Position numbers and translations under genes: made by a program. Of a stretch of DNA of 55,888 nucleotides, positions 43,286 through 49,052 are shown piece after piece. The DNA is taken from contig NZ_RBZW01000067.1 in the NCBI RefSeq assembly GCF_006543045.1, positions 1 to 55,888 of the forward strand. The letters are read 5' to 3'. The notes beneath the pieces were generated by a model. The model did not search any database. It was not told the DNA's origin and saw nothing but the letters and a program-made list of their open reading frames with translations. The DNA comes from Salinadaptatus halalkaliphilus (GTDB taxonomy: Archaea; Halobacteriota; Halobacteria; Halobacteriales; Natrialbaceae). How positions within the stretch are numbered: the stretch's first letter is position 1; each line of letters starts with the position of its first letter.

Positions 43286-43689
43286 TGCGGGACGTGCTCC
43301 CACACCGAGGCGTATAGTCCTGACACGCGCGAGTAACCCAACACGCGGCGCGAGTAGCCACTCGACGGACGGCGTGGCTGGGCCGTTCGCCACCGAGACG
43401 ACTGTGCTATTGGTCAGTTTTGCCGGTCGAGAACGCGCAGTGGTGACTGTTCGTCCATCCCCTCGGTGCGCGCGACCAGGTTCGAACCCATTCGAACGGC
43501 CAATTCCAGAAAGAAACCGACCGCAGGGGATGGTAGAACATATGGTAATAGGGCATATATATAGTAATAGGACGTTGATGTACGGTGGTTTTCTGCTGCC
43601 TATGGTTTGGTACTGAATCACACAGTTTCGATTCCGGACCGGTACAGCGTCAGGTTTATATACATCGTCGCACCTCGGATACTGATACA
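43286..43689. other. 404-bp intergenic region upstream of leuA
   Basis: No gene is supported here. It contains the ferritin-like gene promoter at its left end. Between about 43537 and 43575 an AT-rich stretch carries GGTAATAGGG and AGTAATAGGA as near-repeats around a CATATATATAG core, which may be a second promoter or regulator site. The leuA TATA box lies at 43655. Confidence 0.5.
43655..43662 (+). promoter_or_regulatory. TATA box of leuA
   Basis: TTTATATA in the context CAGGTTTATATACATCG lies 28 to 35 bases before the ATG at 43690, the ideal distance for a leaderless transcript beginning at or just before that ATG. Confidence 0.75.
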
Positions 43690-44923
43690 ATGTCTGCACA
43701 AGACAACCCGTCCTCTGACACCAGTCAGGGGGGTCGAGTTCTTCCAGGGCACGTTAGATTCCACTGACGAAATAGAGTCAGCACGTGTCTTCGACACCAC
43801 CCTCCGGGATGGTGAACAGTCACCCGGTACTTCGTTCTCGTACGACGATAAACGCCAGATCGCCGCGGTTCTGGACGACATGGGTACCCACGTTATCGAA
43901 GCTGGGTTTCCCGTCAACTCCGACGCGGAGTTCGAGGCCGTTCGTGATATCGCTTCTTCGACATCGACGACCACCTGCGGGTTAGCCCGCGTCGTCGACG
44001 AGGACATCGAGGCTGCCCTCGAGTCCGGCGTCGAGATGGTTCACGTCTTCGTGAGCACCAGCGACGTCCAGATCGAGGATTCGATGCACGCGACGCGAGA
44101 GGAAGTGACCGAACGCGCAGTCCAGTCGGTCGAACGCGTCAAAGAGGCGGACGTGACCTGCATGTTCTCGCCGATGGACGCGACGCGAACCGACGAGCAA
44201 TACCTGATGGACATCATCGAGGCCACATCGGCGGCCGGTGCCGACTGGATCAACATTCCAGACACCTGTGGCGTCGCGACGCCGACGCGGTTCAAGGCAT
44301 TGATCGAGAAGGTTTGTGCCCACACCGACGCCCGCGTCGACGTCCACACCCACGACGACTTCGGACTGGCCACCGCCAACGCGCTGGCCGGCATCGAAGC
44401 GGGTGCCGATCAGGCCCAGGTCTCGGTCAACTCCATTGGCGAGCGCGCGGGCAACGCCGCCTACGAGGAGTTCGTGATGGCCGTCGAATCGCTGTACCAG
44501 ACCGACACCGGGATCGATACGACCCGCATCGCCGAGCTGTCGGATATCGTCGAGGACAAAAGCGGCATGCCAACGCCGGGCAACAAGCCCGTCGTCGGCG
44601 ACAACGCCTTCTCCCACGAAAGTGGGATCCACGCCGCCGGCGTCATCGAAAACTCCGACACCTTCGAACCCGGCGTCATGACGCCCGAGATGGTCGGCGC
44701 CGAACGCAAGCTGGTCATGGGCAAACACACCGGCACCCACTCGGTTCGGGAACGCCTGCACGAACTGGGCTACGAGCCGACGACGGACCAGGTGCGTGCG
44801 ATTACCCGCCGCGTCAAAGACTACGGCGCCGAAAAGCGCCGGGTCACGGTCGACGACTTAGAGCGCTTCGCATCGGAAGTCGGCCTCGAGCGCGAATCGG
44901 AGGAAGAGGAGGTGCGCGTCTAA
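43690..44923 (+). CDS. leuA: 2-isopropylmalate synthase family protein (LeuA/CimA), with apparent 5' frameshift
   Basis: The body is a complete LeuA-type synthase: ARVFDTTLRDGEQSPG (acetyl-CoA enolising active site), HTHDDFGLATANALAGIEAG (metal His-x-His) and NAFSHESGIHAAG. It condenses acetyl-CoA with 2-ketoisovalerate; short haloarchaeal homologues may instead act as citramalate synthases. The ATG at 43690, which fits the TATA box, gives MSAQDNPSSDTSQ and then runs out of frame after a run of six G at 43728-43733. With five G it continues as GVEFFQGTLDSTDEIESARV in frame. No ATG, GTG or TTG in the body frame lies between the promoter and the conserved core. The C-terminal allosteric domain is absent. 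The shift may be a sequencing or assembly error or a true mutation. Confidence 0.85.
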
Positions 44924-44993
44924 GGGATGTCCTCCCTGTTTGCCACCGTTGGCGAGCCCCGGCTATCGCGTCCGGGCGCGACGACTCGCAAGG

Positions 44994-45000
44994 GTTATGT
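44994..45000 (+). promoter_or_regulatory. TATA-like box upstream of the ilvB leader frame
   Basis: GTTATGT, within GCAAGGGTTATGTGGG, is centred about 29 bases before the ATG at 45027. It predicts an mRNA starting at that small frame, about 200 bases before ilvB. Confidence 0.45.
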
Positions 45001-45026
45001 GGGTAGCGCAAGTTACCCTGTAACTG

Positions 45027-45113
45027 ATGACACGTCGCGTCTGGCTGTCGGACCGCACTCGCACGGTCGGCAACAGCGCGCTCGCTCCGATTCCTATTGT
45101 AGGGGCGGCCTAG
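45027..45113 (+). CDS. Possible leader peptide (28 residues) upstream of ilvB
   Basis: The ATG at 45027 sits where the predicted transcript begins, and the frame runs 28 codons to a TAG. The peptide starts MTRRVWLSDRTRTVGNSALA and ends PIPIVGAA, with a cluster of Ile, Val and Ala before the stop. The stop codon lies inside a GGGGC/GCCCC hairpin (45101-45117). A leader peptide that senses branched-chain aminoacyl-tRNA is the obvious analogy, but the content of these residues is not far above the proteome average. The remaining 44924-45228 sequence holds a GGGAG ribosome-binding site (45217-45221) for ilvB. Confidence 0.4.
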   Translation: MTRRVWLSDRTRTVGNSALAPIPIVGAA

Positions 45114-45228
45114 CCCCCCATTCAGTACTTCACGCCGTTTCGACGCTCGCACCGGCTTCACAGCGCACCGCAATCCAGCAGATGACACACTGTACACACA
45201 ATCGCCCCACGACGGCGGGAGCATATCG

Positions 45229-47055
45229 ATGAGCGAACGCGCAGCATCGGTTACACCCACAGAAGCGGACGAACAGGACGATGACCAGGAACAGATCACC
45301 GACAGCGCTGCCCCGGACGCAGCCGCGGATACCGGACCTGCCGAGACGACAGACAGCGAGTCTGCACCGGTCACGACGGGCGCCGAAGCCGTCATTCGCG
45401 CCCTCGAGAACGCGGGCGTGGAGTACGCCTTCGGCGTCCAGGGCGGGGCGATCATGCCCGTCTACGACGCGCTGTACGACTCGGAGATCTACCACGTGAC
45501 GATGGCCCACGAACAAGGCGCGGCCCACGCGGCCGACGCCTACGGCATCGTCTCGGGGGAGCCCGGCATCTGTCTCGCGACCTCCGGACCCGGAGCGACG
45601 AACCTCGTCACGGGGATCGCAGACGCCGACATGGACTCGGACCCGATGGTCGCACTGACCGGACAGGTCCCGACGGAGTTCGTCGGCAACGACGCGTTCC
45701 AGGAGACCGACACGACGGGCGTCACGACGCCGGTAACGAAGGACAACACCTTCGCTTCCGACTCCGACCGCGTCGGCACCGATGTCAGCGAAGCTTTCGC
45801 ACTCGCTCGGGAGGGCCGTCCCGGGCCGACGCTCGTGGACCTGCCCAAAGACATCACCAACGGCGAGACCGACGCCGAACCAGACGCGCCGACGACGCCC
45901 GACACCTACCAGGTGCAAGAACGGGCCGATCCCGAGATCGTCGCCGAGGCCGCCGAGCGAATCGAGAACTCGGCGCGACCGGCGCTACTGCTCGGTGGCG
46001 GCGTCATCAAGGGCGAAGCCAGCGAGGTCTGTCGCGAGTTCGCGATCGAACACGAGATTCCGGTCGTCACGACGATGCCCGGCCTCGGAGCGTTCCCCGA
46101 GGATCACGAGCTCTCGATGGAGATGGCGGGCATGCACGGCACCGGCTACGCCAACATGGCGATCACGCACTGCGATACGCTGATCGCCGTCGGCACCCGG
46201 TTCGACGACCGCCTCACCGGCGGTATCGAGACCTTCGCGCCCGACGCGGAGGTCATCCACGTCGATATCGATCCCGCCGAAATCTCGAAGAACATCCACG
46301 CGGACTATCCGTTGGTCGGCGACGCCGACACGGCCGTCTCGCAACTGGCCGAGGCGGTCGACTCCTCGCCGGAGGCGACGAAGTGGCGCGCCCAGTGCCA
46401 GCAGTGGAAGTCCGACTATTCGATGGCCTACGACGCACCCGACGACGCGCCGGTCCAACCGGAGTTCGTCGTCGAGGCGTTAGACGAGGCTACCAGCGAC
46501 GAGGCGATCGTCACGACTGGTGTCGGCCAACACCAGATGTGGGCCTGCCAGTACTGGACGTTCACCGAACCCAGAACCTGGGTCTCGAGTCACGGGCTCG
46601 GCGCGATGGGCTATGGACTCCCCTCGGCGATCGGCGCGCGACTCGCGGCCGACGACGATCAGGAAGTGATCTGCGTCGACGGCGACGGCTCGTTCCTGAT
46701 GACCTTACAGGGGCTGTCCGTGGCCGTCCGCGAGGAGCTGGACATCACGGTCGCCGTGCTCAACAACGAGTACATCGGGATGGTCCGTCAGTGGCAAGAC
46801 GCCTTCTTCGAGGGCCGTCACGCCGCCTCCGATTACGGCTGGATGCCCGAATTCGACAAGCTCGCCGAAGCCTTCGGCGCACAGGGCTTCCGAATCGACG
46901 ACTACGACGAGGTCGCCGACACCATAGAGGCCGCCGTCGACTATGACGGCCCGTCGGTGATCGACGTCCACATCGATCCCGAAGCGAACGTCTACCCGAT
47001 GGTGCCAAGCGGCGGCGACAACGGGCAGTTCGCGCTGACGGAGGACCAGCTATGA
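45229..47055 (+). CDS. ilvB: Acetolactate synthase, large subunit
   Basis: The 608-residue enzyme has a 45-residue acidic haloarchaeal extension. Then come the TPP-dependent fold with the catalytic Glu95 in MAHEQGAAHAADAYG, FAD-domain segments such as ALLLGGGVIKGE, and the TPP/Mg motif GDGSF (from residue 485) with its NNEY partner near 511. It condenses pyruvate molecules, or pyruvate plus 2-ketobutyrate, in valine and isoleucine synthesis. Its stop overlaps the ilvN start by 4 bases. It is preceded by a 305-base leader with a small reading frame, and a GGGAG ribosome-binding site lies 7 bases before the ATG. Confidence 0.95.
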   Translation: MSERAASVTPTEADEQDDDQEQITDSAAPDAAADTGPAETTDSESAPVTTGAEAVIRALENAGVEYAFGVQGGAIMPVYDALYDSEIYHVTMAHEQGAAHAADAYGIVSGEPGICLATSGPGATNLVTGIADADMDSDPMVALTGQVPTEFVGNDAFQETDTTGVTTPVTKDNTFASDSDRVGTDVSEAFALAREGRPGPTLVDLPKDITNGETDAEPDAPTTPDTYQVQERADPEIVAEAAERIENSARPALLLGGGVIKGEASEVCREFAIEHEIPVVTTMPGLGAFPEDHELSMEMAGMHGTGYANMAITHCDTLIAVGTRFDDRLTGGIETFAPDAEVIHVDIDPAEISKNIHADYPLVGDADTAVSQLAEAVDSSPEATKWRAQCQQWKSDYSMAYDAPDDAPVQPEFVVEALDEATSDEAIVTTGVGQHQMWACQYWTFTEPRTWVSSHGLGAMGYGLPSAIGARLAADDDQEVICVDGDGSFLMTLQGLSVAVREELDITVAVLNNEYIGMVRQWQDAFFEGRHAASDYGWMPEFDKLAEAFGAQGFRIDDYDEVADTIEAAVDYDGPSVIDVHIDPEANVYPMVPSGGDNGQFALTEDQL

Positions 47056-48785: not shown

Positions 48786-49052
48786 ATGACCGACAACGAC
48801 ACGACAGATCGGATGGCCGACATCAGCCACACCAACCCCGTCACCGGGGAGAGGGCTGGCCGGCTGTTCGAACGCGGACCGACCGTCGTAGCGGACGGCG
48901 GAGAGGAAGCCACGACGGACGCTGCGGGGCGTACAGAGACGACACAGACCGAGACAATGGCCGACATCGACCACACGCCACCCCAGGCGGCCGACGACGC
49001 CAACCGCGTCTTCGAACGCGGCCGAAACTACCCCGTAGAGGAAGACGAATGA
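48786..49052 (+). CDS. Small protein with two internal repeats inside the ilv-leu operon, function unknown
   Basis: The 88-residue acidic product contains two similar units. The first is [20 protein letters not shown] followed by RGPTVVADG (residues 10-38); the second is [20 protein letters not shown] followed by RGRNYPVEE (about 58-86). The shared pattern is MADI-x-HT-x-P, an eight- to nine-residue spacer, R-(L/V)-FERG. It starts 17 bases after ilvC and overlaps leuC by 4 bases (ATGA), so it is co-translated with the operon. I do not recognise the family. Its place suggests a partner or assembly factor for the isopropylmalate isomerase, but that is inference. Confidence 0.75.

Follow-up and report, generated by a model that had tools for sequence, protein, structure and literature searches.

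A putative leader peptide with Ile-Val control codons and a stop-containing hairpin precedes ilvB across haloarchaea

The analyzed window, a 55,888-nt stretch of Salinadaptatus halalkaliphilus DNA, carries a branched-chain amino acid operon with the gene order ilvB-ilvN-ilvC-(small gene)-leuC-leuD-leuB. The region in front of ilvB contains the following elements, all on the forward strand:

44990–44998, + strand: BRE/TATA promoter element AAGGGTTAT; its TTAT (44995–44998) begins 32 nt 5′ of the uORF1 ATG
45027–45113, + strand: uORF1, a predicted leaderless leader peptide of 28 codons (MTRRVWLSDRTRTVGNSALAPIPIVGAA, then stop), with the frame kept in relatives
45096–45106, + strand: core ATT GTA GGG GC (Ile-Val-Gly-Ala), conserved across relatives
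45102–45117, + strand: hairpin GGGGC-GGCCTA-GCCCC, with arms at 45102–45106 and 45113–45117 and the loop at 45107–45112
45111–45113, + strand: TAG stop codon of uORF1, reaching from the hairpin loop into the 3′ arm by one base
45118–45137, + strand: G-poor, pyrimidine-rich tract immediately 3′ of the hairpin, defined by composition over the leaders
45182–45232, + strand: uORF2 (MTHCTHNRPTTAGAYR, then stop), whose TGA overlaps the ilvB ATG (ATGA)
45217–45221, + strand: Shine-Dalgarno-like GGGAG sequence of ilvB, located within uORF2
45229–47055, + strand: ilvB, acetolactate synthase large subunit, first gene of the operon, taken from the ORF list and used as the query for homologue searches

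The earlier note on this DNA described a 28-codon frame, a TATA-like box, and a hairpin before ilvB; re-reading gave the same coordinates, and the observation therefore stands. The TAG is indeed placed in the GGGGC/GCCCC hairpin, ilvB has its own GGGAG site as claimed, and the distance between the TATA box and the ATG at position 45027 supports a transcript that begins with this ATG and is thus leaderless. The second short frame, uORF2, had been overlooked.

The search with the window ilvB against public genomes produced a set of loci selected by this gene and not by the motif; the set is enriched in Natrialbaceae. All 79 haloarchaeal loci whose upstream DNA was long enough carried the core ATH-GTA-GGG-G and a nearby stop before ilvB. 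Of 392 genomes of the order, 362 matched a DNA pattern for the core and the 3′ arm, ATHGTAGGGGYN{1,12}CCCC, mostly once per genome; the genome to which the window belongs has a single match. The reversed pattern, used as a control, gave about 0.1 matches per genome of the order. Extra matches of the pattern (e.g., L191, L193, L198, and L207) were located in long frames far from ilvB and look like chance occurrences. No IlvB match at a strict cut-off was present in 12 of 25 pattern-negative genomes, and several are incomplete MAGs. Variant leaders were recovered from IlvB-bearing pattern-negative genomes (L144, L158, L246, L247, L248, L249, L251, and L252), one more of which carries a divergent variant (L156). 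About ten ilvB-bearing genomes among the pattern-negative ones examined had no leader within 480 nt upstream. The leader was also absent in the deep-branching families f9 and f11 of the order, and nothing comparable was found in 20 loci of methanogens and other members of the phylum where the start could be assigned; leuA abuts ilvB in several of these loci. Judging from its absence in methanogen relatives, f9, and f11, the leader probably arose within haloarchaea. In one methanogen-side relative (L300), a short frame, MRKCSRLAELCNLFLSVVVC followed by a stop, terminates 26 nt before ilvB and has a Val-rich end; this is a single case, perhaps due to chance.

For promoter and frame statistics, 167 leaders were collected. 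TTAT was located at exactly −32 from the ATG in 100 of the 138 leaders with a clear box, and the TATA-to-ATG spacing was 32 in 93/133. When the ATG closest downstream of the nearest BRE/TATA element was taken without regard to frame, it shared the reading frame of the core in 129 of 133 leaders, compared with the one third expected by chance. On inspection, L059 and L167 appear to use a GTG start. The length of uORF1 ranges from about 18 to more than 40 codons, with the frame maintained throughout. The start, frame, stop position, and final Ile-Val codons, whose conservation the earlier note had proposed to check, are conserved across the order. An attenuator should have a short ORF between the promoter and the first gene, and uORF1 meets this criterion, its translation being inferred. 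Outside the end of uORF1, variation is equal at the three codon positions (0.19, 0.21, and 0.21), and codon-position variation revealed no protein-level selection on the N-terminal part of uORF1 or on uORF2. Therefore, the peptide itself is under no selection, which for the N-terminal part is as expected because the leader would be cis-acting. The broad conservation of uORF1 and the presence of its own promoter could also indicate that it encodes a functional micropeptide, but this is hardly credible for a sequence that is unconstrained except in its last codons.

These last codons are the most distinctive part of the frame, which typically ends with Ile, Leu, or Val followed by Val (GTA), Gly (GGG), and Ala or Val. 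Codons for Ile, Leu, and Val account for 13% at positions −16 to −8 of the leaders and for 40% at positions −6 to −1; over the latter stretch, the two alternative frames reach 23% and 5%. The two core codons encoded branched-chain residues in 100% of the collected leaders; in the set chosen by the pattern, they were Ile and Val without exception. Among the variants, the first core codon is Leu in L158 and Val in L144, L247, L248, and L252, while Phe or Ser was seen only in the low-GC family f2 (L249 and L156). Since the non-Ile codons of the former five leaders are Val or Leu, the identity of the amino acid is kept, beyond the nucleotides alone. Across the order, the first core codon stays branched-chain (Ile, rarely Val or Leu) despite nucleotide differences. 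The residue bias, previously called modest, is indeed modest in the single window sequence but clear across relatives. The core Val codon is GTA in 100% of the collected leaders vs 0.7% of Val codons in the adjoining ilvB, and the core Ile codon is ATT in 77% of leaders vs 9% of Ile codons in ilvB. GTA-GGG was built into the pattern that defined the larger set, and the unbiased evidence consists of the 79 loci and the variants. The core is preceded by T in 136/165 leaders. An attenuator should carry codons for the pathway end products beside its hairpin, and the leader does so.

The nucleotides UAUUGUAGGGG (uORF1 codons 0 to +2) are conserved beyond the needs of pairing and coding, with GTA being invariant. 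Because GUA-GGG is more invariant than these needs would impose, an additional contact by a rare tRNA, a protein, or rRNA may matter. Our preferred guess is that sensing of a rare tRNA at GTA explains the conservation of GUA before the stem.

The end I-V-G-A/V, nearly invariant beside the stop, could also sense a metabolite or amino acid in the exit tunnel and stall the ribosome at the stop. Such nascent-peptide arrest at a stop codon occurs in TnaC with tryptophan. However, there are no conserved residues further up the peptide and no codon-position bias, IVGA is followed by a tail of anywhere between 0 and 5 residues, 11 leaders run beyond the hairpin, and the Gly codon is accounted for by the hairpin itself. 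We consider peptide arrest improbable.

Taken alone, the window hairpin (−12.2 kcal/mol, z = −1.43) is unremarkable, and its weight is therefore comparative. The GGGG and CCCC arms are invariant in the main set and consequently provide no covariation signal. The next, inner pair was C-G in 128 leaders, U-G in 10, and U-A in 9, and C-A was never observed (Fisher p 1.3e-9, uncorrected for phylogeny). Inspection of L156 from family f2 revealed a stem altered to GGUGC/GCGCC. The stop codon of uORF1 was located in the loop in 144 of 165 leaders, in the stem in 10, and beyond the 3′ arm in 11. The conserved hairpin adjoins the control codons, and with the stop in its loop and a covarying inner pair, its dependence on the ribosome is a geometric inference. 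Eleven leaders (L008, L009, L014, L017, L019, L021, L029, L032, L033, L155, and L217) read through the hairpin and stop 15–21 nt beyond the first base of the GGGG arm (e.g., IVGASSPHL before the stop), with an otherwise retained stem.

The GTAGGGGC-N-GCCCC palindrome might alternatively be a binding site of a DNA or RNA regulator, in which case the reading frame would be a by-product. Such a site would account for the invariance of GTAGGGG beyond pairing and coding needs, including the 5′ GUA that is conserved even where it is unable to pair. On the contrary, the gap between the arms, and hence the spacing of the presumed half-sites, differs between genomes, and this is more easily reconciled with an RNA hairpin than with a DNA palindrome recognized by a protein. 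A binding site also leaves unexplained the frame kept in 129/133 leaders, the stop located in the hairpin, the fixed spacing of the leaderless promoter, and the variation of codon 0 only among Ile, Val, and Leu outside family f2, and we regard it as very unlikely.

The first 20 nt after the hairpin of the leaders contained 3.9% and then 11.8% G, with 27%–29% T; further downstream, T made up 7%–12%. The C content was 41%–46%, and no U-run followed the hairpin, so that the U-run criterion of an intrinsic terminator is not met. Likewise, RNAalifold analysis of 52 Natrialbaceae leaders identified only this hairpin and no conserved competing structure, and the terminator/anti-terminator criterion is not met. 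Rfam 15 provided no credible covariance-model match in the window region or in 28 related loci. An RNA motif named ‘leuA-Halobacteria’ is known, and we did not find it in the open-access literature.

In 130 of 155 leaders, uORF2 has a counterpart, a frame that begins with ATG and overlaps the ilvB start through its TGA. When the 100 nt immediately upstream of ilvB were counted by frame, the uORF2 frame contained 3 stops, compared to 88 and 111 in the other two, and 151 ATGs, compared to 17 and 4. A Shine-Dalgarno-like motif was present before uORF2 in only 5/130 leaders and before ilvB in 120/155. Codons for Ile, Leu, and Val are depleted in uORF2 (5.3% vs 10% in the other frames). The distance from the hairpin to uORF2 ranges from 46 to 341 nt, with a median of 68. 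The two frames fit an ATGA termination–reinitiation pair, in which the upstream stop overlaps the downstream start, and translational coupling of such gene pairs has been experimentally established in Hfx. volcanii (PMC6728339).

A second copy of the leader was found in five genomes of family f17 (L113, L116, L117, L118, and L121), where it precedes a gene for a small protein (MADVDHTPP...NRVFERG) of the kind present between ilvC and leuC in the window. There, at about 48900–49052, a small conserved protein (MADIDHTPP...ANRVFERG) occurs in two tandem versions; it had no Pfam match. In L117 and L121, inspection revealed an in-frame ATG before the small gene and not an ATGA overlap. The presence of a portable leader copy on a gene otherwise belonging to this operon argues for a regulatory cassette. 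A search for a tryptophan analogue before trpC in 30 loci revealed no conserved W-containing leaderless uORF.

The overlap of uORF2 with ilvB makes a translational output the main rival to control of transcription. The position of the ribosome on uORF1 would then govern ribosome access to uORF2 and, via ATGA, to ilvB, with the hairpin acting as a barrier or setting the efficiency of reinitiation; sensing of Ile/Val-tRNA would be identical, and only the output would differ. This is supported by the known coupling, by the frame of uORF2, kept open and ending on the ilvB start in most leaders, and by the Shine-Dalgarno-like motif being absent before uORF2 and present before ilvB. However, the highly variable hairpin–uORF2 distance and the second copies in L117 and L121 without the ATGA overlap indicate that coupling is not universal, and we consider translational output possible but rather unlikely.

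The neighboring leuA gene (ORF 43607–44923) has no ATG or GTG in its own frame near the conserved start; within the window, its frame offers no start codon other than a TTG located 186 nt upstream, on the 5′ side of the TATA box. In the other frame, a leaderless reading frame that opens with ATG (MSAQDNPSSDTSQGGRVLPGHVRFH, then stop; window positions 43690–43767) overlaps leuA. The phase of the motif CGAGTTCTTC(C/G)(A/G)GG is identical in 84 of the 84 leuA loci holding it, and a TATA box was found in 80. These observations suggest that a programmed +1 frameshift takes place at Val-Leu codons (GTT CTT), perhaps under the control of leucine. Previous work (PMC8305020) has already pointed out that the start codon of HVO_1510 is problematic and has raised slippage as an idea; the order-wide conservation of the phase of the slippage motif is a new addition.

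Comparison of genomes established the frame, core codons, hairpin, promoter spacing, and uORF2 frame of the predicted leader, as well as its association with the operon. Our preferred reading is ribosome-mediated attenuation of transcription. The leaderless mRNA would begin at the uORF1 ATG, with a ribosome closely trailing the polymerase. A shortage of charged Ile- or Val-tRNA would make the ribosome pause at the final Ile/Val codons, and its footprint, covering GUAGGGGC, would hold the hairpin open and allow transcription to proceed into uORF2 and ilvB. The 11 nt of the core roughly equal the stretch of mRNA that a ribosome occupies 3′ of its A site. When the tRNAs are charged, the ribosome would reach the stop in the hairpin loop and depart, and the closed hairpin, together with the exposed untranslated G-poor, pyrimidine-rich RNA, would favor premature termination of the hairpin or FttA type. 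ilvB would be translated through termination–reinitiation from uORF2, which avoids branched-chain codons and could be read during starvation. If the closed hairpin favors termination, expression would be low when the amino acids are plentiful and high under starvation.

A translation-dependent, branched-chain-responsive cis leader, stated this broadly, is highly probable. Sensing of Ile/Val-tRNA charging through ribosome-mediated attenuation, with the model taken as written, is a proposition we accept with only slightly more confidence than doubt. Sensing by translation is well supported, while control at termination or at reinitiation is inferred, as are the starvation response, the direction of control, and the termination step. 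In Hfx. volcanii, one tested hairpin terminated 59% of transcripts in vivo; the U-run is the main haloarchaeal termination signal, and archaeal termination need not take the bacterial form (PMC7237163). FttA, proposed to police uncoupled transcription, prefers U-rich RNA (PMC11616081), whereas the tract behind the hairpin is richer in C than in U, which speaks against the attenuation model, as do the missing U-run, the lack of a conserved competing structure, and the roughly ten ilvB-bearing genomes without a leader.

The attenuation-type leader of the earlier note is thus supported by position, frame, codons, and hairpin, but its anatomy is unlike that of bacterial attenuators, and a starvation response is not shown by the sequence. 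We regard as reasonably probable that haloarchaea possess a lineage-wide attenuation of their own design, in which a leaderless uORF senses Ile/Val-tRNA, a single hairpin holds the stop in its loop, and control is handed over to a branched-chain-poor uORF2 coupled to ilvB. If true, this would be the first leader-peptide attenuator in archaea, operating without a competing hairpin or a U-run, and archaea would sense amino acids via the translating ribosome, gating an operon. With this leader, a simple reporter in Haloferax volcanii, whose ilvB1 gene is HVO_1508, allows a direct test of whether transcription and translation are functionally coupled in archaea, a question still open. We found no description of leader-peptide attenuation in archaea in the open-access literature, which is not proof of absence.

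Leader-peptide attenuators of branched-chain amino acid operons are known in bacteria, such as ivbL and ilvL of E. coli. Among uORFs already recorded in archaea, a study of Haloferax start sites listed 16, and that of ilvB was not among them (PMC4983044). The arrangement at ilvB resembles the ATGA coupling of Haloferax in the uORF2 stop lying over the ilvB start and the Shine-Dalgarno-like site inside uORF2, but in Haloferax the upstream partner is a protein gene, and here it is a short leader frame without a conserved sequence (PMC6728339). Actinobacterial leader elements are likewise reported to be RNA regulators of amino acid genes, including leader peptides; the present element belongs to another domain and has a hairpin with an embedded stop (PMC1262725). 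Bacterial branched-chain attenuators (including the Corynebacterium ilvB-II motif and ilvB-OMG) also combine a short ORF rich in branched-chain codons before ilvB with an RNA structure (PMC10272879). In contrast to them, the haloarchaeal element is predicted to be leaderless, relies on one conserved hairpin whose loop contains the stop, lacks a conserved anti-terminator and a U-run, keeps GTA-GGG invariant, carries a second, overlapping uORF before ilvB, and spans nearly the whole order.
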